From a virus, in IMG/VR virus record IMGVR_UViG_3300036466_000332, positions 1-64,000 of that record: DNA of 64,000 nt; one strand, written 5' to 3'. Below, one piece after another: positions 4,377 through 33,974 of the stretch. A program made the translations under genes and the position numbers. Under the pieces are notes generated by a model that made no database searches, was not told the origin of the DNA, and saw nothing but the letters and a program-made list of their open reading frames with translations. How positions within the stretch are numbered: position 1 is the first letter of the stretch; each line of letters begins with the position of its first letter.

Positions 4377-4388
4377 ATTAAATATAAA

Positions 4389-5791: not shown

Positions 5792-8605
5792 GTGAGCAAC
5801 GAAAATATGTTACTTCTTAATAACTATTTTGATAGAAATAAAAATAGACACCATATATTAATGAAGAATGTAGATACTGAGGAAAAGAAAGTTTATAAAA
5901 TAAATAACCCAACTATACCTATATATAAAGTTAAAGATGATGTTGAGGTGCCAGATTATTTTATGGAGTATCGTGATATAGAAGACCTTGAAAAACATGA
6001 TGTCTCATATAGATGGAGAGAATGGGACCTTGCAAGATTAATAGGTTATGATGGTTTTACAAATGATGTAAGAAAAAAGCATATTAAAAAGGAGCAGATT
6101 TATTTAGATAAAAGATTATTCGGAGCTGATGTTAGATTAACAGATAGAACTATTATGGACTATCTAGATTCAATGGGTAAAGAAGATAAAGAAGGTAATA
6201 TAACTTATCCTGATGAACCACCAATTAAAAATTTACACATAGGTTTTTTTGACCTTGAGTGGGATATTAGAATAGATAGTGATGATGAAGCTGATTACCC
6301 TATATACCTTATGACGTATTTTGATTCTAAAGAAAATGTTTGTCACACTTTTTATCTTGAAGATAAAAATTATAAATACCAAGATAAACTTCTTAAAGAT
6401 AAGGGTCATAAAAAATTTATCAAGGAATTGAAAAAAGAACTCGAAGAAGATTTTAGTAAACTATCCTTAAAAAATGCTAAGGAAGAACAGCAGGTAAAAG
6501 AGACAATATTCAAAAGATTAGATAATATTAAATATGAGCTTAAATCTTACAGCAGTGAACAGAGAATGATTCGTGATTTTTATAAAATGATAATCAGAGA
6601 TTATATGCCTGATTTTCTATATGCATATAACACCAGTGCAGATATAGGACAAACTCTAAACCGTTGTGATAAATTAAATATCAAACCATCTAGCATTTTC
6701 TGCCACCCTGATGTCGGAGATTATGTTGACTTTAGAATTAGAGATAACACCTTCCCACCAGAGGATAGAAAGCATAACTATGAATGTGCATCTTATACCA
6801 AGATAATGGATATGTTTATAACCTATCATGCTATAAGGGGTGCATCATCTTTTACAAGTTATAAGTTAGATACTGTTGCTAAAGATAATCTTGGTGTTGG
6901 TAAACTAGACTATTCTCATATCTGTGACCACATTGGTGATTTACCTTATAGAGATTTTTATACCACAACTAAATACAACATTCGTGATGTTTTGGTTATG
7001 CCATTTATAGAGGATGTTACACAAGATACTAAGACAATGGTATCTAAACGGTTTACAACAAGAACAGAATACGATCAGCTTTTTACTTCTATGGCTCAAG
7101 TTATGAATGCTTTTTTCCATATGGGAGAAAGAAATGGTCAGATACTCTCTAATGAAGTTAATAAACTTCTTTTAAAGTTGTCCGATAAACAGGTAGAGAT
7201 CCTAAAGGAAGAAGACAGAGTAACCTATGATATTATTATGTCTATTAAAAATGGTGATAGAATCCAGGGTGGTTTATGTACTGACCCAAATAAAGTTACA
7301 AGAAAAGGGATAAAACTTTTACCACTATTAAATAATAAGAAAGTATTTGAAACAGTAATTGATGCAGATGCATCTTCTATGTATCCTAATAATTTGATAT
7401 CCCACAATATAACTAAGACAACTTTGGTTGGTAAGTTAATATGGATAGATGAATTTCATGACTTAGTTTATAAAGAAACTAAAACAGTAAATGGTAGGTT
7501 GATAATAAGTAGGGATGATTGGGCAGCTATTAAAAAGATGCGTTCTAAATCAAATAATAATAAGTTCCAAAGAAATAAGTTTCTTAAAATGTATAGGGCT
7601 ATCAAATATTTTGATTATAAAGAACTTGCTAATAAGTCTATCGATATAGATATCATGAGTGTACTTGAAGATTACGGTTTTAAAGAAGAAAAAGAGTATA
7701 TGCCAAATTTAAGAAAGATATTCAAATACTTTAATGGTTCTATGATAGATAAGGAAGAGTTTGAAAAAGATTTCCCAGATAAAGATAAAAAGGACTTAAA
7801 ACACACTATAGAAATAATCCAAATCTATATTAAAAACATCACATCAAGAATAGGTGAAAGGGCTATCATTTCTTTAATCCAAAGAAACATTATAGAAATA
7901 GGAGAGATATTTTTTAATCTTCCGAATCTAACTGATTTAGATTTTATTTTAAATAATATATCTCAAAAGGAAGTTAGTCTGGTTGATTCACATGATGACT
8001 ATGAAGTAAAAATAGTTAAAAACAAATTAAGACCATTACTTTCTATTTTGTCTCAGCTTGATTCATCTATGTTAAATGATAAAGATTTAGATACCGGATT
8101 ATATAAAACAAACGGTATGTTTTATATCGGGGATAAAAAGAGAAATTATATCAGATATACTGGCACTGTTATAGAATACTTTCTTGAAAGTGGGAAAAAT
8201 CTAACAGATGTCTTCGAAATAGATGAACCAATATATACTGATAGAAGAGGTAACGTTGCAAATTACATTTATGAAGAACAAGTCAAAGTTAAAGAGATAC
8301 CAGATATTAATGGTTCAGTCATTTTCAGTGGTGAAGTTGATGAAGAAAATGTTCGTAAATTGAAGTTAACAGATAGGTTATCTAGGAGGTTAGACTTTAA
8401 AACTAAAAGTGGAGAAATAATAACCATTAATTTAAACCCTAGAATGGTTCCCTGTATAAGGGAGATAGAGTCATTACATGTTAAGATATGTAAAACAGAA
8501 CATGATAGTATTTATGATGTGATAATAAGATCTGAAATACCAATAGAAAAACCACACGAAGATAAATTTATATATAACCAATACATGAAAATACTAAATT
8601 ACTAA
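5792..8605 (+). CDS. Family B DNA polymerase, N-terminal half (exonuclease and motif A only)
   Basis: A 937-residue protein. GTG at 5792 is chosen because GAAGGAG lies ten bases upstream; the GTG at 5783 is too close to it. Exonuclease motif I is seen near residues 154-156 (FFDLEWD), motif II near 280 (YNTSADIGQ), motif III near 395 (YNIRDV). Polymerase motif A is DADASSMYPNNL near 524. Motif B (K-x3-N-T-L-Y-G) and motif C (DTDS) are absent, although 410 residues follow motif A. Both missing motifs are encoded in the gene at 28981-33974 on the other strand. The two products are expected to assemble into one replicative polymerase with 3'-5' proofreading. Confidence 0.85.
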   Translation: MSNENMLLLNNYFDRNKNRHHILMKNVDTEEKKVYKINNPTIPIYKVKDDVEVPDYFMEYRDIEDLEKHDVSYRWREWDLARLIGYDGFTNDVRKKHIKKEQIYLDKRLFGADVRLTDRTIMDYLDSMGKEDKEGNITYPDEPPIKNLHIGFFDLEWDIRIDSDDEADYPIYLMTYFDSKENVCHTFYLEDKNYKYQDKLLKDKGHKKFIKELKKELEEDFSKLSLKNAKEEQQVKETIFKRLDNIKYELKSYSSEQRMIRDFYKMIIRDYMPDFLYAYNTSADIGQTLNRCDKLNIKPSSIFCHPDVGDYVDFRIRDNTFPPEDRKHNYECASYTKIMDMFITYHAIRGASSFTSYKLDTVAKDNLGVGKLDYSHICDHIGDLPYRDFYTTTKYNIRDVLVMPFIEDVTQDTKTMVSKRFTTRTEYDQLFTSMAQVMNAFFHMGERNGQILSNEVNKLLLKLSDKQVEILKEEDRVTYDIIMSIKNGDRIQGGLCTDPNKVTRKGIKLLPLLNNKKVFETVIDADASSMYPNNLISHNITKTTLVGKLIWIDEFHDLVYKETKTVNGRLIISRDDWAAIKKMRSKSNNNKFQRNKFLKMYRAIKYFDYKELANKSIDIDIMSVLEDYGFKEEKEYMPNLRKIFKYFNGSMIDKEEFEKDFPDKDKKDLKHTIEIIQIYIKNITSRIGERAIISLIQRNIIEIGEIFFNLPNLTDLDFILNNISQKEVSLVDSHDDYEVKIVKNKLRPLLSILSQLDSSMLNDKDLDTGLYKTNGMFYIGDKKRNYIRYTGTVIEYFLESGKNLTDVFEIDEPIYTDRRGNVANYIYEEQVKVKEIPDINGSVIFSGEVDEENVRKLKLTDRLSRRLDFKTKSGEIITINLNPRMVPCIREIESLHVKICKTEHDSIYDVIIRSEIPIEKPHEDKFIYNQYMKILNY

Positions 8606-8617
8606 GGAGAGATATAA

Positions 8618-8806
8618 ATGGGTTTTACAAGTATTAAAGATCCACAATCATTTGAGGTTCAGGTAGATCATATAATCAAAGAGTGCAAGAATGATCCTGA
8701 AGATATGCATAAGAGATTAGATTCTTTAATGGAAGAGCAATTATGCCAACTAGGTTATTATAGGGCAATAAACAAAATAAGAGAAACGACAAGACACTAC
8801 TCATAA
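8618..8806 (+). CDS. Small hypothetical protein
   Basis: 62 residues, probably helical, twelve bases after the polymerase N-half stop with its own AAGGAGAG site, so co-transcribed with it. No family recognised. Confidence 0.55.
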   Translation: MGFTSIKDPQSFEVQVDHIIKECKNDPEDMHKRLDSLMEEQLCQLGYYRAINKIRETTRHYS

Positions 8807-8810
8807 TATA

Positions 8811-8822
8811 ATTATATATTAT
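8811..8822 (+). promoter_or_regulatory. Early-type promoter box
   Basis: ATTATATATTAT, 46 bases before the start at 8868. The leader contains GACAAATAAAATATTT, shared with the leaders at 3695 and 63540. Confidence 0.7.
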
Positions 8823-8867
8823 TTATTTGAAAGACAAATAAAATATTTCAAATAAGGAGAGATTCAA

Positions 8868-9260
8868 ATGGAAATTGTAGATATTGAATTTGATTTGGAT
8901 TTATACAAAAAGGAAGACTTTAAAAAAGAAGATATCGTAGAAGTGTCTAATAAGATTTTAAATATCTTGAAAAAGAACGATATAGTCCATGATGAATTGA
9001 TTAGATCACATGTCACCCTTTTTAGTTGTATTTACAAAGTGCCTGTTAAAATAATAGGACTTACAAAAAAACAGGTTGGTTTATTAATAGATGATATAAT
9101 AAAAAATAAAACAGCCTCGGATTCTATAGTGGCTGGTAGGGTATCATCTATGGAACATAATAAATCATATACTGTTGTATTGGAAATGGATAATACAAAG
9201 TATCATGTTTTTAATAGGGATTCAGTACCAAAAGAAAATTTAGAGTATTCTTTAAAATAG
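8868..9260 (+). CDS. Hypothetical early protein
   Basis: 130 residues with AAGGAGAG before the ATG. N-terminal 45 residues are acidic and helical; the rest alternates beta strands (KVPVKIIGLTKKQVGLLIDD, YTVVLEMDNTKYHVF). No cysteine cluster or catalytic signature is seen. It stands alone between an early promoter box and a terminator, a monocistronic early unit. Confidence 0.6.
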   Translation: MEIVDIEFDLDLYKKEDFKKEDIVEVSNKILNILKKNDIVHDELIRSHVTLFSCIYKVPVKIIGLTKKQVGLLIDDIIKNKTASDSIVAGRVSSMEHNKSYTVVLEMDNTKYHVFNRDSVPKENLEYSLK

Positions 9261-9266
9261 TATCTA

Positions 9267-9296
9267 CACCCGGTTAATAGCCGGGTATTTTTTTTG
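9267..9296 (+). terminator. Terminator
   Basis: Stem ACCCGG / CCGGGT (9268-9273 with 9281-9286) followed by ATTTTTTTTG. Confidence 0.8.
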
Positions 9297-9327
9297 TCAT
9301 TATATTCCAAAAGCACTATTTAATTCG

Positions 9328-9339
9328 AACAAAGATATA
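9328..9339 (+). promoter_or_regulatory. Late-type promoter box
   Basis: AACAAAGATATA matches AACA-N6-TA and lies 25 bases before the adhesin-like gene at 9364. Confidence 0.5.
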
Positions 9340-9363
9340 ATAAAAAATGAGAGGTGAAAACCA

Positions 9364-10518
9364 ATGACAATAGAGATAAACACAATTCAAGGTTTATTAG
9401 ATATTAAAAACGATTTATCAGCTGATTACGTTTTAACCGACGATATAGATTTAAGTGGTTTAAGTAATTGGGAACCTATTTTTAATCATAAAGCAGCAAC
9501 AGCTGAAGATGGGTTTTTTAAAGGAACACTTGATGGACAGGGTCACAAAATAATGAATTTGTCCGGGCAATATATTTATGAAGAGGACATGTGGCGTGCT
9601 TATTTTGAAAAAAATAATTTAGAGGATTTTGAGAAAGTTAAAAACGATCTTAAAACTGGAGAATTTGCTGATGATGAGCATTTATCTATATCTTTAGAAA
9701 TGTTTTTTGATATGGTGGTCATGGGTATCTTAGGTGATAATGATACAGTCTCTCCTTTTTTATCACCAGATACGGTGACACTTATAACAGACAATAATAA
9801 TAATGATTATTTTTTAGACGATACTATAGGTGAAAGACCAACTGAAGCAAAAATTATATTTAACAGTTGGCCTCTGCAAGATGAGATGGAGGGTTATTTT
9901 GGTCAGTTTGATGCTGATGGTGATAGTGGTATCACATTGGAAACAGATGCTATTCTTACTTATTTTGAAGACAATTATTCAAGATGTGAGATTATTTATA
10001 CCTTGCCAGATGATCCAGCAGAGGACCCACAGATAACCAATTTTTCTGGTAACTTTGCACCGAATGGCACTGATAGTATAGTGCCACCGAGAAGTTTATT
10101 TATGGGTTTATTAAATGCTGAAATTAAAAATTTAATTTTAGAGAATGTAGATATTGCTGGTTTAGATTCATCTGGACCTGATATGTTAGGTAATCCAGAG
10201 GTAGATTTTGTAAGTGTATTGTCACACATGTCATGCAATAGCACTTTTAAAAATATCAAAATTACTGGTACTGTTGCTGGAAAATGTTATGTTGCAGCTT
10301 TATCAGGTATAGGATATAAAAAAAATCAAGATGACAAGATATTAATAGATAATGTTGTTTTTGATGGAGATATATTTTCCAGAAGTAATTTTGCTGGTTT
10401 TATCACAAATGTTATACCAGTTGATCAAAATGTAACTCTTGATGTTGATGATATCGAAATAAATGAAAGCTATGTGCAGGGTAGGTTTACTATTTTAGAA
10501 CAGCCAGTAGCAGTATAA
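9364..10518 (+). CDS. GLUG-repeat beta-helix protein, tail fibre/adhesin-like (part 1)
   Basis: 384 residues. The start has the layout of GLUG/beta-helix surface proteins: NTIQGLLDIKNDLSADYVL, DDIDLSG, NWEPI, then FKGTLDGQGHKIMNLSG. Residues 255-384 resume short beta-helix rungs (IKNLILENVDIAG, FKNIKITGTVAGKC). Between them lies an acidic insert of about 170 residues that breaks the repeat. Such domains act in adhesins and phage receptor-binding proteins. The next gene carries the missing end of the repeat domain, so the two may form one fibre. Late promoter box upstream fits a virion protein. Confidence 0.6.
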   Translation: MTIEINTIQGLLDIKNDLSADYVLTDDIDLSGLSNWEPIFNHKAATAEDGFFKGTLDGQGHKIMNLSGQYIYEEDMWRAYFEKNNLEDFEKVKNDLKTGEFADDEHLSISLEMFFDMVVMGILGDNDTVSPFLSPDTVTLITDNNNNDYFLDDTIGERPTEAKIIFNSWPLQDEMEGYFGQFDADGDSGITLETDAILTYFEDNYSRCEIIYTLPDDPAEDPQITNFSGNFAPNGTDSIVPPRSLFMGLLNAEIKNLILENVDIAGLDSSGPDMLGNPEVDFVSVLSHMSCNSTFKNIKITGTVAGKCYVAALSGIGYKKNQDDKILIDNVVFDGDIFSRSNFAGFITNVIPVDQNVTLDVDDIEINESYVQGRFTILEQPVAV

Positions 10519-10544
10519 TTTTAATAACTGAGAGGTGAATAAAA

Positions 10545-11276
10545 ATGATAATTGATTTCCCAATAGATACATTTGCTATAGATACTGGATTAAATGATTT
10601 TGTGGCTGGAATGACAATTGCTGGACCACAAACAAAAATAAGAAACTCGTATGTTTCTGTTAGGCTAATTAAACCCGATTTGGCTGGAGATGAATACTAT
10701 GAAATGAGAGGACTCATTAGATCCAGTTTAGCAATAGGAGGACCATTGACCCATAGGTGTTATTACAATTCTGATTTATTTGGTCTTGTGGATACACAAG
10801 CTACACCTTTAACTAACGAGAGAATGAAGGACATGTTAAATTATGTTGAATGGGATTTTGAAAACACATGGGGTATGGATGATGGTGAACCTGAAGGGTA
10901 TACTCCTGAAGAATTGAATTTTGATGGTTTCTACGATCTTTTGATGGGTAGTTTTTCTGAAACAGGTATGCTTCCACCTGGAGACGAGCAGGAAATAAAA
11001 GATATGATGGAAATGTCCATTGGATCTTTGATGATGATGCTTTTTATGGCTGGAATGGCTAATAATCCCAATACACCTGATGCACCAGGTGATATCCCAC
11101 CGGGTTTGTTATCTGGTGATGTTGTTAGTTTTAAATTGGATGGACAACCAATGGATTTAGAAAATCTTACAGAAGAAGAGTTTATGAACATTGATCCAAC
11201 AAAAAACGTAACAATTACAGTTAACGATTATTCGAAACTTCTGCAAAATTTTAAAAATATACCAGATATGATTTGA
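10545..11276 (+). CDS. GLUG-repeat beta-helix protein, tail fibre/adhesin-like (part 2)
   Basis: 243 residues, 26 bases after part 1, with its own GAGAGGTG site. Residues 75-115 match the end of GLUG domains in bacterial proteins: CYYNSDLFGLVD, then a TNERMKDMLNY segment and WDFENTWGMDDG. In single-chain relatives this follows directly on the rungs seen in the gene before. The remaining half is acidic, with a Met-rich stretch (IGSLMMMLFMAGMA) and a Gly/Pro loop. Either a second subunit of the fibre or the product of splitting of a longer gene. Confidence 0.55.
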   Translation: MIIDFPIDTFAIDTGLNDFVAGMTIAGPQTKIRNSYVSVRLIKPDLAGDEYYEMRGLIRSSLAIGGPLTHRCYYNSDLFGLVDTQATPLTNERMKDMLNYVEWDFENTWGMDDGEPEGYTPEELNFDGFYDLLMGSFSETGMLPPGDEQEIKDMMEMSIGSLMMMLFMAGMANNPNTPDAPGDIPPGLLSGDVVSFKLDGQPMDLENLTEEEFMNIDPTKNVTITVNDYSKLLQNFKNIPDMI

Positions 11277-11284
11277 CCAACAGA

Positions 11285-11319
11285 CCCACCACTTGGTAGA
11301 TAAGTGGTTTTGGTTTTTA
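11285..11319 (+). terminator. Possible weak terminator
   Basis: Stem CCACTT / AAGTGG (11289-11294 with 11302-11307) followed by TTTTGGTTTTT. The T tract is interrupted. Confidence 0.4.
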
Positions 11320-11352
11320 ATATAAAATCAGATAATATAAGAGGTGATAAAA

Positions 11353-11709
11353 ATGGATTTAGAGATGATTATTTCTATGTTAGAAGAAATATCTAATTTT
11401 ATATCGTCAAGTGAAACTGAAGTGAATTTTGGAGATATAACTCAAGCAACTGACCCCACAACAGTACAGATGCAACAGTATAAGTTTTATAAAAAATATC
11501 AAGGTATAAATAATGGGTATCCTTTTCTTAGAGTTTTTGATGGCTCCTCTCCAGTTATTGATCCAGAAGATTCTACTGGTGATAATGGTGGTGGGTTACC
11601 TAATACCGGCAATTTAAGGGAGGTTATTGCACCTTTAATTTATGGTGATAGATATAGATATACTTTCCCTTATGTTAATTTACCTAGTGAATTTTTCACT
11701 AATAAATAA
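11353..11709 (+). CDS. Hypothetical protein, probable tail-associated
   Basis: 118 residues from the ATG at 11353 with AGAGGTG upstream. The N-terminal 20 residues are helical; the middle has a Gly/Asn-rich loop (STGDNGGGLPNTGN). No family recognised. It closes the adhesin-like cluster before a strong terminator, so a fibre accessory role is possible by position only. Confidence 0.55.
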   Translation: MDLEMIISMLEEISNFISSSETEVNFGDITQATDPTTVQMQQYKFYKKYQGINNGYPFLRVFDGSSPVIDPEDSTGDNGGGLPNTGNLREVIAPLIYGDRYRYTFPYVNLPSEFFTNK

Positions 11710-11716
11710 TAAATAA

Positions 11717-11747
11717 AACCCAGGGTTAACCCTGGGTTATTTTTTAT
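11717..11747. terminator. Bidirectional terminator
   Basis: Perfect stem AACCCAGGG / CCCTGGGTT (11717-11725 with 11730-11738) with a T tract on the plus side and an A-rich (T on the minus strand) flank on the other. Separates convergent genes. Confidence 0.8.
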
Positions 11748-12013
11748 ATAAAACCTTTTTTGGTTAATTTTTTAATTAAATCTTCGAGAGAAATTTTTCT
11801 TGATGCTTCTATACTTCCATTTTTAATCCACATCAAAGATTCCCCATTTTTTTTACCGTAAAAATAGACAGGTCCGATTCTATCAACATTGCAAAATTTA
11901 CCAACACATGTTTTTGTACCAAATACTCTTTCTGGTGTCCCTAACTTTTCTTTTAACTTCTCAACTCCACGACATAGTAGTAGTTTTTCTTTCCCCAATT
12001 TAACTATAACCAT
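11744..12013 (-). CDS. Hypothetical small protein
   Basis: 89 residues from the ATG at 12013, preceded by GGGTGGAG; an upstream in-frame start at 12052 lacks a site. Basic, beta-rich (MVIVKLGKEKLLLCRG). Contains three cysteines but no clear metal motif. It follows the amylase gene but has its own late-type box. No family recognised. Confidence 0.6.
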   Translation of the reverse strand: MVIVKLGKEKLLLCRGVEKLKEKLGTPERVFGTKTCVGKFCNVDRIGPVYFYGKKNGESLMWIKNGSIEASRKISLEDLIKKLTKKGFI

Positions 12014-12062
12014 TGTCTCCACCCTTCTTATTCCTATTATTTTTATATACACTTTAGTGTAC

Positions 12063-12074
12063 TAAATATTTGTT
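12063..12074 (-). promoter_or_regulatory. Late-type promoter box
   Basis: Reads AACAAATATTTA followed by G on the minus strand, 50 bases before the start at 12013, in the short gap after the amylase stop. Confidence 0.5.
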
Positions 12075-12081
12075 GTGATGA

Positions 12082-13188
12082 TTAGACTATTTCACATTTA
12101 TTCACAACTTTGTAAGATCTTGGTTTTATTTTAAATCCAGCGTATTCTCTTTTTGATAAACTATTATTTAATAATAAAGTTTTATCACCTTTAGTGACAA
12201 CATAAAGGTCTGAATCCAAATAGTTTAATTCATTTTTTTCTTCGCTGTTGTTTACCTTAATCAAAGGATCAATCCTTTTTTTGAGATTATAGTCGAAATA
12301 ATCTTTCCAGAAAATAACAGCCGGTTCATTTTGAAAAAGTATGTACGCATAGGCTAATTCTTTATTCTCGACTATATCCTTTGTGTACCCATTTTCGGTT
12401 CTACCTATATCGTGATTGGATACAAAGTTTATCATACCCGGATAACTCATACCATATATTTTTCTCATATCAAATTCTGGGTTCATACACATTTCTTTTA
12501 ATTTATAAAACATAGGGAAATTTAAAGTATCTATTTTAGTTTGGTTTCTAAAATCATCTATGTAGGTTATATCTCCATCCCATAATTCACCCATCGTAAA
12601 ACAATCAAAATTTTCTTTCCATTCTTTAAGAAAGTCCCATCGTATGTCTTTGCAATTATCTATTCTGAACCCATCGTATCCTATGTCTTTTTTCAACCAT
12701 TCACACCATTTTATCAATCCATTTTTCATATATTCATTATCTGAATAATAACAGATCGTTTCACCGAATTCATTATTTGATCCACAATTCCCACAGTTAT
12801 GGCAGAAATGCTTGTGGTTTTTTGGGAATCTCTTTTCAGTAAATCTGGTCCAAGTCTCTACTTGAACTCTTTCATCTGATAAAGATGGGTTTGGTTCTCT
12901 ATCTCCACCAACCATATGACCCATAACAACATCAGCTAAAACTTCTATATCTTTTGATTGTAAATTGGATATTAAATTCTTTAGGTCTTTTTTTGTTCCG
13001 AATCTAGAATTTAAGTTGTAGTGTTCTTTAATGTCATATCCCATAGAATCATTACCATTCATTCCTCTTGACGGTGGTGGCAACCATATTTTTTTAAAAC
13101 CTTTTTTTGATAAGGCGTCAACTAAGGCATCTAATTCTTTATACCAGTCTTTATGACAATCCCAATAAAACCCTTGTAGAATAACCAT
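12082..13188 (-). CDS. Alpha-amylase, glycoside hydrolase family GH13
   Basis: 368 residues predicted to hydrolyse alpha-1,4-glucan (starch/glycogen-type) bonds. It opens with VILQGFYWDC, then IWLPPPSRGMNGNDSMGYD, as in archaeal/plant-like GH13 amylases. Conserved regions are all visible: I ADVVMGH near residue 88; II GYDGFRIDN near 195 with the nucleophile Asp; III FTMGELWDG near 222 with the acid/base Glu; IV NFVSNHDIGR near 278 with the third Asp. A CHNCGNC cluster near 150 may bind metal or form an insert. It is shorter than most GH13 amylases, with a reduced C-terminal beta domain. No signal peptide. The ribosome site (AAAGG) is weak. Late promoter upstream. Confidence 0.9.
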   Translation of the reverse strand: MVILQGFYWDCHKDWYKELDALVDALSKKGFKKIWLPPPSRGMNGNDSMGYDIKEHYNLNSRFGTKKDLKNLISNLQSKDIEVLADVVMGHMVGGDREPNPSLSDERVQVETWTRFTEKRFPKNHKHFCHNCGNCGSNNEFGETICYYSDNEYMKNGLIKWCEWLKKDIGYDGFRIDNCKDIRWDFLKEWKENFDCFTMGELWDGDITYIDDFRNQTKIDTLNFPMFYKLKEMCMNPEFDMRKIYGMSYPGMINFVSNHDIGRTENGYTKDIVENKELAYAYILFQNEPAVIFWKDYFDYNLKKRIDPLIKVNNSEEKNELNYLDSDLYVVTKGDKTLLLNNSLSKREYAGFKIKPRSYKVVNKCEIV

Positions 13189-13234
13189 TTAATAAAACAC
13201 AACCTTTATCTATATATTTCCTTTCATTAAGTTC

Positions 13235-13246
13235 TAAAAAATTGTT
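13235..13246 (-). promoter_or_regulatory. Late-type promoter box
   Basis: Reads AACAATTTTTTA followed by GAA on the minus strand, 47 bases before the amylase start. The 15-base core is identical to the box before the RusA-like gene at 15937. Confidence 0.6.
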
Positions 13247-13273
13247 TAAATGGTGTTTCAAATGGTAAATTAA

Positions 13274-13298
13274 AAGCGAGGGATTTTAACCCTCGCAT
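13274..13298 (-). terminator. Terminator
   Basis: Stem GCGAGGG / CCCTCGC (13276-13282 with 13290-13296), followed on the minus strand by TTTTAATTT. Ends the operon 15887-13306. Confidence 0.7.
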
Positions 13299-13305
13299 AA
13301 ATTAT

Positions 13306-14721
13306 TTACATTGCTTTTTTTAGTTCTTGTTTTAATGCTGGATCTTGCACACACATATTTAATACTGCTTTAGGTTGCATGTTAGTTTTAAGAATAAATT
13401 TCTGACCTTTAGGTAGTTCTCTTGAAAGGGTTCTTGCAAAACCTGATAAAGCAACACTAATAGATTGCACAGGATCATAACCATTCTTTAATGCAACACC
13501 GACTATTTCTTGAATGATTGGTTTGATAATAGCAAAATCTTTTTTATCCAAAATAACAATTAAAGGTTCTGTTACTTTACCATTCATTAAATCAGCATCT
13601 TTTAATTTATATCTCTTACCTGAGTTTTTACCAATAGCAAAACCGTTTCTAGCTTCTTTAGCTTTAATCATTCTAAGAAGTCTTGACATATTATTTTCCT
13701 TGATCATGGTTGTTCTTAAATCGTTGATGATATTGCTTTCAGCAATCAGTACCTCGTGGGCTTTGAATGCTCTGGCAGTTTCTTCACCAAGCAAATCAAA
13801 AGACTCCCTAATCATTTCTTCGTCCATTTCTGCTTCGTAATCTTCTGCTGCTGGTTCTTCTCCTTCTTCGTCATCGCCATACAGTTCATTAAAGCTATCT
13901 TCTAATTCTTCTGGTGGTGTTTCTTCCATATCATCCATTCTTTCTAAGAACTCTTTTTTCTTCATTAATCTTAATCTATCAAAAGCCACAGCAATAGCGA
14001 CATAGACTATAGTATCTAACTTAGCTGACTGCATGATCACATCTTCACCAGCATCAATATTTGAATATGTATCAATCACTCTTTCTTTTATAATGGAAAT
14101 GTAATCCTTATCAGGGGTTACTTTATTATTAAAGGGATCTAAAGATTGGATTGCATCGAAAGTTGATTCACCAATTGTTTCTGATTCGTCTACTTCATCT
14201 TCGAAACCCATTCCCTCTTCATCTTCTACATCTAATTCTTCTTCTAGTTCTTCTGCTTCTTCTTTATCCTTTTTGACTTTTTCTGCATCTTCTTTCATTT
14301 CTTTTTTAATTGTTTGGGAAATCTCTTCTTCTATGTCTGTATTCTCCATTTCACCTAATACATCTTCTACTTCTTTTGGTGCCTCTTTGGTTTCTTCTTC
14401 ATCTTTAGCCTCACCAATTAATTTAGAATAATGATCTGTTAAACCCTCAATGATACCACGAATATAGATTGTATTGAATTCGTTTGTCTGTTTTACTCTT
14501 TCATCGAATTCTTCAAAGGGAAGTATTTCATCAACAACCTCACCTATATGGTATTTGACATCTCTAGCAGGGATATCTGATAACTGTTCTTTTTGTTGAT
14601 CTGGAATCGAGTTAAAGATAACCTCACCCATAACTGACTGATAAATCTTATCATAAGATTCATCTAACATTTTTCCTTTTTTATTTAATAAAATTTGATC
14701 TTCAAAACTATTAAAGTACAT
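13306..14721 (-). CDS. Acidic scaffold/core-like protein
   Basis: 471 residues. Residues 100-185 and 275-310 are very acidic and helical (EEAEELEEELDVEDEEGMG), a composition common in capsid scaffold or head-core proteins. Residues 345-470 form a more globular domain (FAIGKNSGKRYKLKDADLMNG, ending in LKQELKKAM). No protease signature is seen. It ends the minus-strand operon with the RusA-like gene. Scaffold is a hypothesis based on composition only. Confidence 0.6.
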   Translation of the reverse strand: MYFNSFEDQILLNKKGKMLDESYDKIYQSVMGEVIFNSIPDQQKEQLSDIPARDVKYHIGEVVDEILPFEEFDERVKQTNEFNTIYIRGIIEGLTDHYSKLIGEAKDEEETKEAPKEVEDVLGEMENTDIEEEISQTIKKEMKEDAEKVKKDKEEAEELEEELDVEDEEGMGFEDEVDESETIGESTFDAIQSLDPFNNKVTPDKDYISIIKERVIDTYSNIDAGEDVIMQSAKLDTIVYVAIAVAFDRLRLMKKKEFLERMDDMEETPPEELEDSFNELYGDDEEGEEPAAEDYEAEMDEEMIRESFDLLGEETARAFKAHEVLIAESNIINDLRTTMIKENNMSRLLRMIKAKEARNGFAIGKNSGKRYKLKDADLMNGKVTEPLIVILDKKDFAIIKPIIQEIVGVALKNGYDPVQSISVALSGFARTLSRELPKGQKFILKTNMQPKAVLNMCVQDPALKQELKKAM

Positions 14722-14992: not shown

Positions 14993-15008
14993 TAAGCTCA
15001 CCCTTTTT

Positions 15009-25533: not shown

Positions 25534-25540
25534 AAATTGT

Positions 25541-25568
25541 GGCAGGGGTCAAACCCTGCCTTTATTTA
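25541..25568 (+). terminator. Terminator
   Basis: Stem GGCAGGG / CCCTGCC (25541-25547 with 25554-25560) followed by TTTATTTAAT; short T tract. Confidence 0.6.
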
Positions 25569-25589
25569 ATCTAAAGATAAACCTACCGA

Positions 25590-25602
25590 AACAATTTAGA
25601 TA
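25590..25602 (+). promoter_or_regulatory. Late-type promoter box (N7 spacing)
   Basis: AACAATTTAGATA followed by GA, 34 bases before the portal start. The spacing is seven rather than six, as also at 49223. Confidence 0.45.
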
Positions 25603-25635
25603 GAAATTTAACCGTTTATTAAAGGAGGTTTATAA

Positions 25636-27798
25636 ATGGCTGATAAAGAAAACGAATTAAAAACACAATTCCAGAAAAAAATAGAAAACATTGATGAAGA
25701 TTATAATAAATTAGAGGATAAACTAAATAGAAAAGTATACGGTGTCGGAACTAAAGTTAGAAACCTTGTGGATATAAGTGATGACTTACCTAATAACTTT
25801 CTAGAGGGTCTAGGTTCCTCTTCTTACCGTTCATCTAGAAAACACCTGTTAGACATCGTTGGAAAAGATAACGACACCAGGGTGCCTTTAGAGGACGCTA
25901 TGGAGGATGCACTAAACGATATTGGTGATTACATAACATCTTCTCCTACATATCAGGAGAGAATACTTTTAGAGCAAGAATACAATTACATGTGTGCACA
26001 AATGCCACAGCTTTTAAACTCAATTGAAATAAAAGTTAATAATATTTTATCACCAGATGGCACATCCAAAAGGTTTATCCAAAACGATATTGTGCGAGGA
26101 GATAGTATCATCTCCCAACAGGAGTTAAAAGATATAACAGATAGCAAAGAATTAGAGCCAATGGTAAAAGACATATACACCAAAACATTTATAAGTGGAA
26201 ATAAATATGTTTATACAGTACCCTACAGAAGAATAGCCGAAAGAATATATTCTAGGTATTTGGAAAAAGAATCTGTAGGTGGTATGATAGCTGAAGCAGA
26301 CCTTGCAGAAAAAGAATTGGATAGTTCACTTTTTAGAGAATCTATTGAAGAAGTTGTTTTTTCTGACAGTGATGAAGAATTTGTTGATTACTATGGGGAG
26401 AGTGTGACTTTTGAAACCAGTGAAGAAAACAAATCAGAAATGATGTTAACAGAAAACCCATTGATTGATGAGGCTAAAGATTCTATAGCTTATGAACTTA
26501 ATAAGAAATTTGAAGAAGGTGACGATTTCTTATCTGAAAAAGATGGTGTGTTGATAGGTGAAGCTAGATCGAAGTTTAGTAAAATGACTGGGTGTCATGT
26601 CGAGGTTTTAGAAAACGAAAGATGTATTCCGGTTGTTGTTAATAGAGAAGTCATAGGTATATACTATATTGAAAAACCAGAAGTATTAAATGCTGCTGGT
26701 GGGAGGACAAGTTATAGTATCTCAAATATGACCGGCTCCAATTATATTAATGACACTAACGATGTCTTTAATGAAAGAAACAACATGACAAAAAATATGG
26801 TAACCAAGAAATTGAGAGGTGTAATAAAAAAGAACCTCGATAAGAAATTGATAAAGAAAAATAAAAAAATCTTGGATACAATAGAACATATACTAAAATC
26901 TTCTGAAACATCCGATTATAAAGTTAGGTATATACCAAGAAAATATATTACACCATTTATGGTTAATAAAGACAATATGGGTCTTGGTAGATCTCAATTA
27001 CATCGTTCAAGAATAATGGCACACATGTGGATTTTATTAAACTATTCTAATTTAATGAATAAATTGTTTTTTGAAAAAGATAAAATGTTGGTTAATGCAA
27101 GGGCATCTGTAAGTAAAGATTTAGGTTCGGTTGCCAAAAGAGCACTAGAGGCTGTCAAAAAAATATATCCTATGCCAAACGAAATCTTGGATCTATCTAA
27201 GACACACGGTAGGATGGCTGACATAGCAAGGGTTATAATGCCACAGGCAAGAAACGGAACTAAAGCTTTAGATATAGAAAGAATGCAGGGTCAGGCTATT
27301 GAAGAAAACTACGATTTTAAAAAGGATTTAGAACACATAGCAACAGCTTTAGTTGGTGTTCCTTTTTCAATGACAGATACTCAAGCAAATACTGATTATG
27401 CCACAAACTTAATAAGTCAAGACATACATCAAGTATCATCTTCGATAACGTACCAAATAGAATTAGAAAAACAGATATCTGAGTTTATAACAAAGGTTGC
27501 CAGATACGAAAAAGACGATGACAGTATAATTATTAAATCAAACTTACCATTACCTAAAACTCTAACACAAGGGTTACAGGGTGACGCTTTAAATAGAATA
27601 ACAGACAAAATAAATAGTATAGTTGAACATGTGGTGGAGGATAGAAATGAAGAGAAAAGGGATTATTTAAGAGAAAAGTTATTTAGAAAAGAAACAGGTT
27701 CTTCCATCGACTGGTTCCAGATAGATAAGATACTAAATAAATACAAATCAGAAACACCAGATAAAGATGACGAAGATTCAGGTGGAGGTAGATTCTAA
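25636..27798 (+). CDS. Portal protein
   Basis: 720 residues, AAAGGAGG site. The size, the central region (RSQLHRSRIMAHMWILLNYS) followed by a long helix-rich stem, and the segment FSMTDTQANTDYATNLISQD near residue 580 agree with T4 gp20-type portal vertex proteins, which form the dodecameric DNA gate. A 100-residue acidic insert (residues 215-300) has few hydrophobic residues. C-terminus ends in an acidic/Gly tail (DKDDEDSGGGRF). Late promoter and adjacency to the PhoH gene. No terminase lies in this window. Confidence 0.7.
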   Translation: MADKENELKTQFQKKIENIDEDYNKLEDKLNRKVYGVGTKVRNLVDISDDLPNNFLEGLGSSSYRSSRKHLLDIVGKDNDTRVPLEDAMEDALNDIGDYITSSPTYQERILLEQEYNYMCAQMPQLLNSIEIKVNNILSPDGTSKRFIQNDIVRGDSIISQQELKDITDSKELEPMVKDIYTKTFISGNKYVYTVPYRRIAERIYSRYLEKESVGGMIAEADLAEKELDSSLFRESIEEVVFSDSDEEFVDYYGESVTFETSEENKSEMMLTENPLIDEAKDSIAYELNKKFEEGDDFLSEKDGVLIGEARSKFSKMTGCHVEVLENERCIPVVVNREVIGIYYIEKPEVLNAAGGRTSYSISNMTGSNYINDTNDVFNERNNMTKNMVTKKLRGVIKKNLDKKLIKKNKKILDTIEHILKSSETSDYKVRYIPRKYITPFMVNKDNMGLGRSQLHRSRIMAHMWILLNYSNLMNKLFFEKDKMLVNARASVSKDLGSVAKRALEAVKKIYPMPNEILDLSKTHGRMADIARVIMPQARNGTKALDIERMQGQAIEENYDFKKDLEHIATALVGVPFSMTDTQANTDYATNLISQDIHQVSSSITYQIELEKQISEFITKVARYEKDDDSIIIKSNLPLPKTLTQGLQGDALNRITDKINSIVEHVVEDRNEEKRDYLREKLFRKETGSSIDWFQIDKILNKYKSETPDKDDEDSGGGRF

Positions 27799-27810
27799 AA
27801 ACAAATATAA

Positions 27811-27838
27811 GAGGCAGGGGTTAACCCTGCCCTTTGTT
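27811..27838. terminator. Bidirectional terminator
   Basis: Stem GGCAGGG / CCCTGCC (27813-27819 with 27826-27832) between convergent genes; T tract short on the plus side. Confidence 0.65.
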
Positions 27839-28239
27839 TATTCTTTAAAAAAATCCTCTATATTCTTTTTCAGTTGAATTAAGAATTCAAATAATATGTT
27901 ATGTTGAACACATTCTTTTATATAGTTCTTTTTAAACATGTTTTCCAATACCACCCTTCGAGTAATATATTTATGTTCCAAATGTATGGTATATAAAATT
28001 GCTACGGTAGTGAATATCCATAGTAACCTAACATTACCTGAACCCGAATTAATACTCATAAATGTAGTATATAAGCATAACAACATTAAAGTTATCATTC
28101 TCAACATACCCTTTAAATCGTATGTGTCCCTTATGATATAAATTTTTTTTCCCTCATAAACGGTTCCGACTCTACCTATTGTTTTCTCTAAGACAAAAAC
28201 TTTTTTATCGGGATTAGTCTTACATTTCCATTTTTCCAT
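27838..28239 (-). CDS. Hypothetical two-helix membrane protein
   Basis: 133 residues; start codon shares a base with the kinase stop, so it is translationally coupled. Two membrane helices are seen near residues 46-62 (MLRMITLMLLCLYTTFM) and 68-84 (VRLLWIFTTVAILYTIHL). Flanking domains are charged. No family recognised. Confidence 0.65.
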   Translation of the reverse strand: MEKWKCKTNPDKKVFVLEKTIGRVGTVYEGKKIYIIRDTYDLKGMLRMITLMLLCLYTTFMSINSGSGNVRLLWIFTTVAILYTIHLEHKYITRRVVLENMFKKNYIKECVQHNILFEFLIQLKKNIEDFFKE

Positions 28240-28967
28240 TAAATACCACCTTCACTAGTGCCCCCATACGTTATCCAAGCTGGATTAGGTAATACACCTT
28301 TTCTTTTTATTGATTCACATATTTCCCCGAGTATGGTTTCTCTATTCTTTAACTGTCCATTTTCACTACATTTGATTATGTCCCATTTTTGTCTTTTTAC
28401 AACAAATAAAGAATTCTCATGGGTTTTTTTCATGTATGCTTTATCAACTTCATGTATATCTTTATCCTTGGTGCCAGTGATTTTATTTTTTCTATTCTCT
28501 ATAAGTTTTTCTCTGATATCATAATCCATATGAAGGAAAATTGTGATATCTGGTTTTGGTAAACCTAGTTTATTATACTCTAAATCATATTCCCAATCTA
28601 AAAATTTTTCTTTTTCATTTAAGGTTTCGAATTTAGAACTCTGGTGTATCATATTGGAAGAAACATATCTATCCATTATTATAATATATCCTTCATCAAC
28701 ATATTTTTTCCATGTGTTTTTAAAGGATATAAACCTATCCGAGGCATAAAATAAAGATGCAGGGTAACCACCGATATCTTCAGCCTCTTTAGAAATTTCA
28801 CCATTTAAATACATTTTAACTAAATGTGAAGAATCATTATCATAGAAAGGGAAGGATAATCTTTTCACCTTCTCATATCTACCATTTAAATAATCATATA
28901 ATAATCTGGTCTGTGTTTCTTTCCCTACACCATCTACACCATCAATCGCTATTATTTTGGATTCCAT
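28239..28967 (-). CDS. tmk: Thymidylate kinase (dTMP kinase)
   Basis: 242 residues. P-loop at the N-terminus IIAIDGVDGVGKETQTRLL, the DRYVSSN motif near residue 99 that binds the phosphate and base, and a lid-like segment ENRKNKITG near 160. It converts dTMP to dTDP for DNA synthesis; in uracil-DNA phages such as PBS1 and AR9 the equivalent enzyme may also act on dUMP, which cannot be judged here. It lies just after the polymerase C-half, giving a replication operon. Confidence 0.88.
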   Translation of the reverse strand: MESKIIAIDGVDGVGKETQTRLLYDYLNGRYEKVKRLSFPFYDNDSSHLVKMYLNGEISKEAEDIGGYPASLFYASDRFISFKNTWKKYVDEGYIIIMDRYVSSNMIHQSSKFETLNEKEKFLDWEYDLEYNKLGLPKPDITIFLHMDYDIREKLIENRKNKITGTKDKDIHEVDKAYMKKTHENSLFVVKRQKWDIIKCSENGQLKNRETILGEICESIKRKGVLPNPAWITYGGTSEGGI

Positions 28968-28980
28968 TTAAACCACTCCT

Positions 28981-30420
28981 TTAATAAAAGTCTATAACAT
29001 TGGTAACATGTCTTCTTTTTTTGCTATCTCTAATAGTTATTAAACCTAATGGATCAATGACCGGTGCAATAAGGTTTGATGTTTGTGTTATAACTGGTGT
29101 GGTATTTAAGAAATCCAAAACAAAATCCGGTATATAGGTTATATCGTATGGTAGTGCTATTTTTTTTATATCCCTGTATCTCTTCTGGATGGAAGATAAA
29201 TTATCAAGTCTAAATCTTTTTAATTCAGATTCCTTTGCACCTCTCTCAATTAGTTTCTTTTTAATCTTTAAACCTTTTCTTTTCATAAATTCATTGGAAA
29301 CTAAACGGAATGTATCTGTATAAATGTCTAATACATCCATAGCCATTTTCTCTATACCCTGATCATATACATCGTTGATTTTAAGATATAAATATTCACC
29401 GTCATTTATGACCATGATATTATTATCCATCATGTCTACTACTTTCTTTGTTTTATAAAGGTCATATTGGCTCCTAAACTTAGAGTTAAATTTCTGTACT
29501 ATGACATCCAGTAAATCTTGATCTAAATCTATATCGTCAGATATCTTTAAAAAAACAGAGTTATTTTTTACTGAGACTTCACCGCGATACATTAAACCAG
29601 ATTTACCTTTTTCTTTTAATTCTATGAAATCCAACTCTTCATAATTGAAATTTATTCTATCTGATATGTCAACTCTGTATCCATTTAATTTATCTTCGTT
29701 TGATTCTATCATTCTATCTATTATGTGATAGGATAGTTTCTTAAACATCTCAGGGTAATCTCTTTTCATACCCTCTATATCTGTCATATCTAAATAAGCT
29801 GTATAAAAGGTTGCTGGTGCCTCTATCTCATCATCTAAACCTAAATCATTCCATAACTTTATTGCAGTAACTCTGTGGTCTGAGATAGGGAAGTCTTCGA
29901 ACACACCATTTAGCTTATGGACATCAAAGAATTCTTGTGCAGTTTCACCCTTCATCATTTCTAAAACTTCATTATCTATATCTCTTAATTTATTTAGTAT
30001 CCTGTCTAACTTTATATCCTTTTCTCTCATGATATCATTTTCAACTATGTCCTCAACATTACTGCATAACTTCTGGTTAAAATTTGATTTAGTAAAAGAT
30101 AAACCCTTAACGTCCAAGTCAGCAACTTCAAAAACATTTCCTTCTTTAAGTTTATTTAATCCTATATAATTTTTCTTTCTAGATGTTAAAACGAATCTTT
30201 TATAGAGGTACTCGTTTTTCATATTGATTCTTGATTTATATCTTTCCAAAACATTAGTGTGGTCCTTATATCTTTCCAAAGAATAATCCACACAACTTAC
30301 AGCAACCATTGTGGAAAGATTAGAAAGAGTAAACCATATCTCGTCTTCAGACAAATTTTTGTATCCTTTGTTATAAAGATCGTTTATATCATTATTCAGT
30401 TCATCTATAGCAACCATATT
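28981..30420 (-). CDS. DNA polymerase B C-terminal half, exon 3 (palm end and thumb)
   Basis: 479 codons counted from AAT at 30420 to the stop. The first residues NMVAIDELNNDI continue motif C (DTDS) of exon 2, as IYV/NVD-type residues do in family B polymerases. Near residue 78 the thumb motif SRKKNYIGL is seen, then VKGLSFTKSNFNQKL, equal to the 'KKRY..KG' block that contacts primer DNA. The first in-frame ATG (30417) has no ribosome site and a TAA lies two codons before AAT, consistent with a splice junction rather than a start. The rest is a large thumb and C-terminal extension. Confidence 0.8.
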   Translation of the reverse strand, partial: NMVAIDELNNDINDLYNKGYKNLSEDEIWFTLSNLSTMVAVSCVDYSLERYKDHTNVLERYKSRINMKNEYLYKRFVLTSRKKNYIGLNKLKEGNVFEVADLDVKGLSFTKSNFNQKLCSNVEDIVENDIMREKDIKLDRILNKLRDIDNEVLEMMKGETAQEFFDVHKLNGVFEDFPISDHRVTAIKLWNDLGLDDEIEAPATFYTAYLDMTDIEGMKRDYPEMFKKLSYHIIDRMIESNEDKLNGYRVDISDRINFNYEELDFIELKEKGKSGLMYRGEVSVKNNSVFLKISDDIDLDQDLLDVIVQKFNSKFRSQYDLYKTKKVVDMMDNNIMVINDGEYLYLKINDVYDQGIEKMAMDVLDIYTDTFRLVSNEFMKRKGLKIKKKLIERGAKESELKRFRLDNLSSIQKRYRDIKKIALPYDITYIPDFVLDFLNTTPVITQTSNLIAPVIDPLGLITIRDSKKRRHVTNVIDFY

Positions 30421-31471
30421 CGTTTATACCCTCGGTCTCCCGATATTTAGAAACTTGGGACTAGACTATATCATGATCATATAACCTTAAAGGTTACTTA
30501 GATCCCTTCCATTTCCCTCACGGTACTCTACTCAGTTATCATCAGTCAGTCACCCAACTGAATCCCTTTTCGATAGTCGTTGAACCTTTAGTCGAGATAT
30601 CTTAAAAATTATAGTTTTCGGAAATATTAACATATGATTCTTTCTCTCTTATTCTTTTTACAAATTTCCAGAACTTTTGTCTTTCTAATGTTTCTGAAGT
30701 ATCAAAGTTTAACGTGTCGGCTATTTCTCGGGTTGTAAGATTTTTTTCTAATAAATCACAAACTGACACCACCATGCTTTTCCAATTGTACTTATATTTG
30801 TTTTTTCTATGGTGTATATCATAATTTGCATATATGCCCTTATGAATGGTACCAGTTTTAATTTTTTGTATAGTGGTTAACTCCACTTTATCTTTGAATT
30901 TTGGATATAAATCCATCGGATTTAACCCTTTTTCTAACCCTCTACAAATATAATGTACATCGTCATCAGTCAATACACCTTGATCTTTATGTTGTGTGAA
31001 TGTCCCTTGTTTTATCGAATGGTGTATATTTTCTTTTTGTGTCAACCATCTCAAATTATAGATATTATTGTTACCCCTATCTAAGTCTATGTGATCGACC
31101 ACATAGTCATTTGGGTTATCTATTGGGTCATAGGTGTTTAACATCACCCGATGCACGTAGAAATTTCTTTTATTATTGTTTTCATCTATAGGTAATCTCA
31201 CATACTTATAGCCGGCATTCTTTATATTTTCTTTCAATACTTCACCAGTATTGTAATTTTCTATAATTCCGTGTTCTGAAATAATGTAATTCCCGTATAT
31301 TTTGTACCCATCGACAAATTCAATATCTTTATAAATGATAAACAAATCACTCCTTTGTCGATATCTCGATTACTTGGCTGCTGATTGTCTTATAACTTTT
31401 CAGCTATAACAGTTCCCAGCAATTAGAAAGGTTTTTCACATAATGTTTCCACTATGTGCTCCTATAAATTA
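30421..31471 (-). mobile_element. Group I intron 2 in DNA polymerase, with HNH endonuclease gene
   Basis: 1051 bases. The 5' splice follows GACTCT (codons Asp-Ser of DTDS); CUCU can pair with GGAG ten bases on, giving the U-G pair at the splice site. A GAAA-capped hairpin follows. Core signatures on the minus strand: AATTGCTGGGAAC, GACAATCAGCAGCC (31375-31390), TTCAACGACTATCG (30571-30586) and GATATAGTC (30463-30476). The last intron base is G at 30421. Joining gives DTDS-NMVAID, a continuous motif C. The endonuclease gene sits between the core elements. Confidence 0.8.
30602..31345 (-). CDS. HNH homing endonuclease (intron 2)
   Basis: 247 residues, same strand as the intron. The HNH core is YVHRVMLNTYDP, VVDHIDLDRGNNNIYNLRWL and TQKENIHHSI near residues 65-112, as in I-HmuI-type intron endonucleases. 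The C-terminal half contains helix-turn-helix-like segments (LTTIQKIKTG; LTTREIADTLNF) for DNA binding. Expected to cut intronless polymerase genes so the intron spreads. The reading frame is intact. Confidence 0.85.
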   Translation of the reverse strand: MFIIYKDIEFVDGYKIYGNYIISEHGIIENYNTGEVLKENIKNAGYKYVRLPIDENNNKRNFYVHRVMLNTYDPIDNPNDYVVDHIDLDRGNNNIYNLRWLTQKENIHHSIKQGTFTQHKDQGVLTDDDVHYICRGLEKGLNPMDLYPKFKDKVELTTIQKIKTGTIHKGIYANYDIHHRKNKYKYNWKSMVVSVCDLLEKNLTTREIADTLNFDTSETLERQKFWKFVKRIREKESYVNISENYNF

Positions 31472-32200
31472 AGAGTCTGTATCAATCAATAAAATCAAAC
31501 TTCTCATTATATTTTTAATTGTACCCTGTGTATTCGTGGTGATTTTGTTTGCCTCTTCAATAAGATCCCCGCCATACCAGTAATATCCACACAATATCTG
31601 TTCTGTCATATCCTGTAATTTATCGATTTGTTTTTTAACAGATTCCGGTGGTTCATAAGGGTCAACAAAAACACTACCTTCATCTTCTTTTCTATTTTTA
31701 TCAATTGTATCTAGGGACTCTTTAAATAAACTTTTAACTTCGTCAATATTTAAAAAGGCGTCTATATTATTTTTATAATATATTTTTATTAAAGATTCTA
31801 AAGATATCTTATTTATTTTTCTAAAGACACCATCGTATGCATAGTAGTTTTCATCAATACCAATATGCTCCATTACTTTTTGTATATAAATTCCTTTTAA
31901 CTTTGAATCTCTTTCTTTTTCGTTGTTCCAACTAATACCATTTTCTTTAGCTCTCCTTACAACATTAGCAAACAATACCCCATAATAATCGTCATCTTCT
32001 TTTATTATTTCATCCAATGTGTAAATTAGTGCATCATATTTTTTAGGGAAATAACCACCCAAAGCAGCTTCAACAGTTAAAGCAGAAATAGATATTATAC
32101 TTCTACCTTTAGAAGTTATTGCTGCACCCAAATCAGGAGAAAACAATTTACAGTACATATTAATTAAAACACCGTATAAGGTGTTCATAATAATTTTTGT
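31472..32200 (-). CDS. DNA polymerase B C-terminal half, exon 2 (motifs B and C)
   Basis: 243 codons from ACA at 32200 to TCT at 31472. It opens with TKIIMNTLYGVL, polymerase motif B (K-x3-N-T-x-Y-G), followed by AAITSKGRSI, and ends with LILLIDTDS, motif C with the catalytic Asp pair. The apparent GTG start at 32203 is really the intron end. Exon 1 ends YDLRQKD, so splicing gives RQKD-TKIIMNTLYG, matching the usual R/Q-x-x-x-K-x3-N-S-x-Y-G spacing. The whole spliced product would be about 862 residues (140+243+479). Confidence 0.82.
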
Positions 32201-33554
32201 CACTGTTGCTATTCATAACAAATAGCTTAGTGGACTATATCATATCCGTACATTCTTAAACAGGGGGCGATTCATTTGAAAAATGTAAAAATTAATACTG
32301 AGGAAACTTTATTTGATTATCACATTGATAAGGATGGTTTCATTTATGGACAATACGATAGACCTTTAACTATATATAAAAATGGTAAAGGTGAGTTTGT
32401 CAAAATGTATCATGAGGGGTCTTCAAAATCTTTTCATATACATGAGCTAATTGCGTATACTTTTTTGGAATATGAAAAGAGTGAAGACACAATAATATCT
32501 TATTACCCTAATAAAAAAACCAAACTGAACAACGTGAAGATATCCAATGTTTTCGATTACGTTGAAAATAGACATGGTTTCAAAAAACCCAAATTTTTAA
32601 AATACGATGATAAAAAATACACCAAATATATCGTGGATATAGATGGTCGTGTATTCAACACCGAAACATATAAAATATTATCTGAGCATCAAACCCCTCA
32701 GGGATATGTCTTTGTGACATTAAATTTAAAGACAAGAATGATGCATCGTATTTTATATAGCACATACGTTGAACCCATGGATCCTGATCTAGTTATAAAC
32801 CATAAAGACGGCATTAAGTCAAACAATACCCTCAGTAACTTAGAGTAGGTGACCACAAGAGAAAACTCAATGCACGCTATCAATACTGGGTTAATTGAGA
32901 CATTTGGGCCCGAAACAATAGAACCTATTTTGACCTTATACTATGGTGGGGAGGGAAGAAAACATATCTCAGAAAGATTAGGTATCAATTATAATACGGT
33001 TAGGTATATAATAGAAAAACATGCCAACCATTCTCCCGACTTTATTAACAGAACTTCTTTCAATTTATTAGAAGTTGAAAAAATATTCAAATTAAAAGAA
33101 AAAGGCTATTCATATTCTGAAATCTCAAAAAGAATCGATCACAAAAATATTTCCACCATAGGGTATACATTGAATAATAAAAATTTCCAAAGAATGTTTA
33201 AAAATGATTAGGATTTGCCTGTTTCCATTTAATCACATGGGTTTTTAGTGAACCTTTCGAGGGCTGTACTATATCTAAAAAGATACCCTAGTCTCTGAAC
33301 CCACACCATGATGACCTATATAAAAGTCATTTTAGATGTTCGGCTGCTGATTATCCATTATAACTCTCCTTAGGGCACCATCCTTAATTGGGTGGTGTTT
33401 TTATTTCACCATAGAGAATCCCCTAACTTGTTTCTGACTTTCGTCACCTTTGTATGGGTTTTCACCGCATATTTTGGTACAGGGGCGTTAAGAACTCCCA
33501 GCATTTAAGGCAATTTTAACCACACTGTTTCCAGTATGGTAGGACACACTTTTT
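32201..33554 (-). mobile_element. Group I intron 1 in DNA polymerase
   Basis: 1354 bases. The 5' exon end AGGAT can pair with GUCCU eight bases on, with the U-G pair at the splice site; then a perfect nine-pair GAAA-capped hairpin ACCATACTG / CAGTGTGGT. Core signatures on the minus strand: AAATGCTGGGAG, AATCAGCAGCCGAA (33340-33353), GTTCAGAGACTA (within 33281-33300) and GATATAGTCC near 32232-32245. The last base is G at 32201. Splicing restores motif B. The stretch 33212-33554 has no gene and holds most of the core. The endonuclease gene inside is on the opposite strand. Confidence 0.78.
32276..33211 (+). pseudogene. HNH homing endonuclease, antisense in intron 1, broken by an amber codon
   Basis: A TTG start with GGGGG upstream opens 190 codons ending in NHKDGIKSNNTLSNLE, then TAG (32846-32848), then in the same frame VTTRENSMHAINTGL and 105 more residues. 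In HNH endonucleases of this kind the text is NLEWVT..EN..HA, so TAG replaces a Trp TGG by one base. The N-terminal half carries two HNH-like copies (FHIHELIAYTFLE and MHRILYSTYVEP). The C-terminal part has helix-turn-helix-like repeats (ISERLGINYNTV; SEISKRIDHKN). It is opposite to the intron transcript. Probably inactivated; readthrough cannot be ruled out. Confidence 0.8.
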
Positions 33555-33974
33555 ATCCTTTTGTCTTAAATCATACAACTTACCAAGTATGGGGTCATCA
33601 CCTTCTGTTAAGTAGTAATTACCCAACTTCTTTATCTCAGCTCTATCATCAAACAATCTCATCTCACCACTAACAACTGGTGGTGTTTTGATATCTTGGT
33701 TTAAAAAGAATGTGCCATTTTCAACCATAAGATAAGGGGTTGAATAAACATCTTCAATAAAATCCAACGCATCCAATTTATAGTTTTTACCTCGAACTGT
33801 ATTGATTAATTCTACGCTTCTATTTACAAACTTATCTTTAAATAATCCGTATAATTTTGTGTCATCTTCTAATTCTAATTTTCTAGAAACATCCTCTATC
33901 CAAGCGTCTCTAAAAACATCTTCATTCTCGAAATTTTTTGCAAATTCCAAATACCCTCTTGACCATCTACTCAT
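33555..33974 (-). CDS. DNA polymerase B C-terminal half, exon 1
   Basis: 140 codons from the ATG at 33974, which has AAGGAG ten bases upstream, to GAT at 33555. It encodes the start of the second polymerase polypeptide, helical and acidic (WSRGYLEFAKNFENEDVF), ending in KLYDLRQKD just before motif B. The open frame runs twelve codons into the intron and stops at 33516. In most family B enzymes this region is continuous with motif A, which here lies in the separate gene at 5792-8605. Confidence 0.72.

Follow-up and report, generated by a model that had tools for sequence, protein, structure and literature searches.

The window, the 64,000-nucleotide stretch of viral DNA analyzed here, very probably encodes a divergent family B replicase of the phiKZ type, which is divided over two genes and whose C-terminal half (C-half) gene carries two predicted group I introns. 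A sequence-only reading of this DNA had proposed a family B DNA polymerase (PolB) split over two distant, continuous genes in an unusual, inverted arrangement on opposite strands; the split is real and of a known type, but neither the continuity of the second gene nor the unusualness of its orientation held. The introns in the catalytic-half gene are the part that was overlooked, and the corrected gene model comprises four blocks of coding sequence plus two probable ribozymes instead of two genes.

The gene for the N-terminal half (N-half) has the following features.
5783-8605, plus strand: N-half of the split PolB, 940 aa, with exonuclease motifs I to III and palm motif A
6251-6259, plus strand: Exo I, D157-x-E159, invariant in alignments A1 and A3
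6629-6643, plus strand: Exo II, N283..D287, invariant in A3
6974-6988, plus strand: Exo III, Y398xxxD402, invariant in A3
7361-7387, plus strand: polymerase motif A, DADASSMYP (D527ADASSMYP), with D527, D529, S532, Y534, and P535 invariant in A3

The plus-strand open reading frame (ORF) had been placed at 5792 to 8605; the ORF is real but its start is not, since it extends from 5783 to 8605 and position 5792 is an alternative GTG. As claimed earlier, it contains Exo I, II, and III and motif A and lacks motifs B and C, the residues concerned being invariant in a 13-member alignment. It matches phrog_3011 ("DNA polymerase"; E value, 1.6e-31) and aligns with AR9 gp131, and its DnaQ-like exonuclease and motif A fit the N-half of this family. 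The N-half profile matches residues 95 to 490 of RB69 gp43 (E value, 6e-40) and also T4 gp43, running past motif A, and a Foldseek search with the N-half model identified RB69 gp43 (E value, 8e-15). The N-terminal and exonuclease domains of the AlphaFold model are good, and the palm has a pLDDT below 50. Motif A is followed by an extension of about 400 aa (7388 to 8605, plus strand), in which no fold was found (model pLDDT below 50); the corresponding length is 62 to 70 aa in AR9 and phiR1-37 and about 265 aa in JD-Fnp4, the only phage with a similar extension of the N-half after motif A.

On the minus strand, the C-half gene and its insertions are arranged as follows.
33555-33974, minus strand: exon 1 of the C-half, start ATG at 33974, C-terminal end ...LYDLRQKD
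32201-33554, minus strand: predicted group I intron 1, 1354 nt, inserted a single codon ahead of the lysine of motif B
32276-33211, plus strand: putative HNH homing endonuclease gene in intron 1, antisense, its frame broken by a TAG at 32846-32848
31472-32200, minus strand: exon 2 of the C-half, from motif B (32200-32171) to motif C (31483-31472)
30421-31471, minus strand: predicted group I intron 2, 1051 nt, immediately following the codons for DTDS
30602-31345, minus strand: putative HNH endonuclease ORF (NUMOD4 and HNH_3) in intron 2, sense, intact, 247 aa
28981-30420, minus strand: exon 3 of the C-half, thumb (SRKKNY, 30183-30166) and C terminus

Positions 28981 to 33974 had been taken for a single gene, but only 33980-33516, 32212-31469, and 30423-28981 are open in this frame, and a single minus-strand gene of 1664 codons is ruled out by its many stops. 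The motifs assigned to this region do lie on the minus strand, 20 kb from the N-half gene (motif B, TKIIMNTLYG; motif C, DTDS; and SRKKNY), and in the alignments and the spliced frame, the KKxY thumb motif, motif B, and motif C are confined to the C-half. When 33554-32201 and 31471-30421 are excised, the junctions are exactly in frame and a continuous reading frame of 863 aa results. The junctions were fixed by three independent guides: by the uninterrupted JD-Fnp4 homologue (738 aa), which reads YDNLQKNIKILMNTYYG followed by VIDTDSNFLSYE; by the relative L005, which lacks the second insertion, reads LLIDTDSNMVAIDEL, and has an exon 2 protein 90% identical; and by the group I rules of a U at the 5' exon end and a G at the intron end. 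Exon 1, in an identical copy (L018), has 37% identity to residues 10 to 147 of the JD-Fnp4 C-half; exon 2 matches phrog_262 (E value, 7e-8), phrog_2927 (E value, 7e-5), and, under the curated cutoff, PF00136 (E value, 0.0015); and exon 3 matches PF20286 divDNApol with 68.7 bits (cutoff, 25.7) and phrog_2927 (E value, 2.4e-24). On this sequence evidence, the C-half gene is best described as three exons cut by two group I introns, with splicing expected in the cell.

The C-half profile matches PolB from the fingers through motif C, and on the template Thermococcus gorgonarius PolB (2xhb), the best-matching stretches are 392 to 444 for the N-half profile and 451 to 545 for the C-half profile (E value, 4e-12). 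The alignments show no variation at the catalytic residues of the C-half. Its AlphaFold model is poor (mean pLDDT, 55), and the BFVD matches are mainly AR9 gp151 and its kin. Consistent with the sequence-only reading, no complete polymerase was found elsewhere in the 146-kb record or in a 194.6-kb contig identical to it across a 7-kb region: profile searches with PF00136 (146-kb record) and with PF20286, PF00476, and PF07733 (record and contig) revealed no second polymerase, PF00136 and PF20286 each identified one polymerase locus (the latter also in the contig), and neither record nor contig gave a PolA or PolIII alpha match. Because the 2xhb stretches are complementary, the catalytic residues are invariant, and no second polymerase was found, we infer, as the best and most natural reading, that the two chains share one PolB active site. 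The plus-strand product would be an exonuclease chain that also bears the motif A aspartate, the minus-strand product would supply the fingers, motif B, motif C, and thumb, and their association would complete one palm active site. Both HNH-bearing introns would have to be spliced from the C-half mRNA to give the 863-aa chain.

A different division of labor, in which the N-half is a stand-alone proofreading exonuclease with an idle motif A-like stretch and the C-half is a self-sufficient polymerase, appears very improbable. Iyer et al. (2021; PMC7824862) treat the exonuclease as a protein of its own that may associate with the polymerase, but the five motif A residues listed above are invariant across N-halves, the N-half profile passes motif A of RB69, and the C-half match to 2xhb starts after motif A.

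The two insertions have the hallmarks of group I introns. At intron 1, the 5' exon ends in T and the intron in G, P1 can be drawn as AGGAU/GUCCU with a U.G pair, and the core elements Q (AATCAGCAGCC), R (GTTCAGAGACTA), and S (GATATAGTCC) are present; intron 2 has P1 CUCU/GGAG, a U at the 5' exon end, a 3' G, and P, Q, R, and S elements. Within the 64-kb window, Q (AATCAGCAGCC) and R (GTTCANNGACTA) occur only in these introns, two times each, compared with expected counts of 0.01 and 0.06, respectively. The P/Q and R/S core elements are common to seven introns of relatives, and the change on both sides of R/S in L030 (GACCA with UGGUC versus GACUA with UAGUC) fits pairing. Rfam RF00028 gave no match to the window's own introns, even at an E value of 10, perhaps because ORF insertions break the group I core. 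No close relative without intron 1 was found, and the proposed junction of intron 1 was set from the distant JD-Fnp4 homologue and from P1.

Were the C-half message left unspliced, the HNH insertions would divide it into three separately translated pieces, which together with the N-half would make a four-chain polymerase. The split nrdA of phage Aeh1 is a parallel for pieces translated separately; each piece here is an open frame, and the second codon of exon 3 is ATG. We nevertheless regard this arrangement as highly unlikely, given the exact in-frame junctions with the 5' U and 3' G, the P1 pairing, and the P/Q/R/S elements; moreover, a separate start for exon 2 would fall inside motif B, exons 2 and 3 are fused in L005 without intron 2 (...DTDSNMVAIDEL in one frame), and relatives have introns in this gene that RF00028 does match (phiR1-37, E value of 8.5e-14; L036, E values of 3.8e-17 and 6e-12). 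An assembly or binning artefact behind the split or the inversion is hardly credible, even for a metagenomic, incomplete (146-kb) record, since the 194.6-kb contig agrees across the 7-kb region and isolates, JD-Fnp4 with the same layout among them, already refute it.

The ORFs within the spliced introns of our preferred model probably encode HNH homing endonucleases, with a presumed cutting activity. The intron 1 ORF matches phrog_959 (E value, 5e-23), with HNH_3 (23.3, just short of 24.8) and NUMOD4 under the Pfam cutoff. In L005 this gene is intact (311 aa), with CAG where the window has TAG. The intron 2 ORF matches HNH_3 with 35.5 bits (cutoff, 24.8), NUMOD4 with 23.7 (cutoff, 23.4), and phrog_59 (E value, 2.5e-24). 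Between the window and L005, positions 34087 to 32190 are identical except for one mismatch (99.9%), whereas the flanks are about 9 to 22% divergent (exon 2, 83.6% identical; upstream gene, 89.2%). Besides intron 1 and exon 1 in its entirety, the tract includes 107 nt of upstream sequence, and it enters exon 2 by only 11 nt; its sole mismatch is the TAG/CAG difference in the antisense HNH gene, and the L004 contig, which is identical here, also has TAG. Such an asymmetric co-conversion tract is homing-like, that is, the pattern expected from a recent homing of intron 1. L005 lacks intron 2, which the window has. Natural pairs of intron-plus and intron-minus alleles of this gene are suited to studies of homing and of how jumbo phages compete.

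Interruptions recur in the C-half genes of relatives, in a census that is small and whose counts are uncorrected for shared descent: at motif B in L032-L035 and L036; at motif C in LPJP1, L030/L031, AH12, and, by its core elements, MarsHill; at NMKNEF in phiR1-37, L036, and AH12; and at a fourth place in L024. Most of them have the same core elements as the window's introns. The MarsHill GenBank record annotates an exon junction in this gene, whereas the AH12, LPJP1, and phiR1-37 records list the C-half pieces as separate proteins, because group I introns recur at the catalytic motifs. Unannotated introns lie in LPJP1 (Listeria; L010, ~3496-3977), phiR1-37 (Yersinia; L009, ~4560-4920, minus strand), and AH12 (Staphylococcus; L067, ~3800-4500), and in L024 a span of 1.3 kb contains three group I introns that match RF00028 (88-1334, minus strand, opposite to the polymerase gene strand; each E value, ≤1e-20). 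It is conceivable, although we consider it somewhat doubtful, that the C-half gene is a repeated landing site for introns at motif B, motif C, and NMKNEF, which would make the replicase supply splicing dependent while the endonucleases attack the polymerase gene of co-infecting relatives. By analogy, phiPA3 gp210 reportedly attacks at an RNA polymerase gene. Outside the window, L065 (G001:C1:34000-41000) has two more group I R elements beside an RNA polymerase beta' piece that stops shortly past MNGDYDGDK, with an HNH-like fragment nearby; these are probably introns at the RNA polymerase active site, as in AR9.

The split itself is not new; it is the rule among phiKZ-like phages, to which the window adds a lineage. 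AR9 and other phiKZ-like genomes divide the polymerase at this point too, after motif A and before the fingers; AR9 gp131 is described as an "exonuclease and partial catalytic domain" and gp151 as the catalytic domain (PMC5312081), and for phiKZ, a "split subunit DNA polymerase" is mentioned in the literature (PMC5105663). The nearest relatives are the Fusobacterium JD-Fnp phages, and in JD-Fnp4, gp99 and gp117 are the same halves, on the plus and minus strands and 25 kb apart. Opposite strands also encode the halves of phiR1-37 (2-kb gap) and of CR5, phiEaH2, and pVa-21 (27 to 29 kb); AR9 and PALS_2 have both halves on one strand. Because many isolates have opposite-strand halves, commonly 25 to 30 kb apart, the inverted order is ordinary in this group; inversions are frequent in its genomes. 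The genome also encodes a multisubunit RNA polymerase (beta subunit, phrog_3015; E value, 2.7e-30; 37356-39191). Elsewhere in the window are a phage gene with an alpha-amylase catalytic domain (12082-13188, minus strand; PF00128; E value, 4.5e-18) and a GroEL-like phage chaperonin (41949-43601, plus strand; phrog_5725; E value, 3.6e-50).

Some T4-like phages and one archaeon had been offered as the comparison set, wrongly. The split gp43 of some T4-like phages and the split PolB of Methanothermobacter also consist of two chains, but they belong to another lineage and are not encoded on opposite strands 20 kb apart; the adjacent, single-strand halves of the T4-like type are not what is found here. 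The phiKZ-type split PolB (Pfam PF20286, divDNApol) fits, with the same cut, distant genes, and a genome of the multisubunit RNA polymerase type, and the window's C-half differs from it by two predicted group I introns. The introns of MarsHill, AH12, LPJP1, and phiR1-37 are in the same gene, with the same core elements and at motif C, NMKNEF, or motif B sites, whereas those of the window lie a few codons off and harbor HNH ORFs, of which one is antisense. In phages SPO1 (I-HmuI) and Bastille (I-BasI), too, the DNA polymerase gene has a group I intron with an HNH endonuclease (cited in PMC12908238), but their polymerases are intact single-gene enzymes, whereas here the host gene is one half of a split PolB and would carry two introns.
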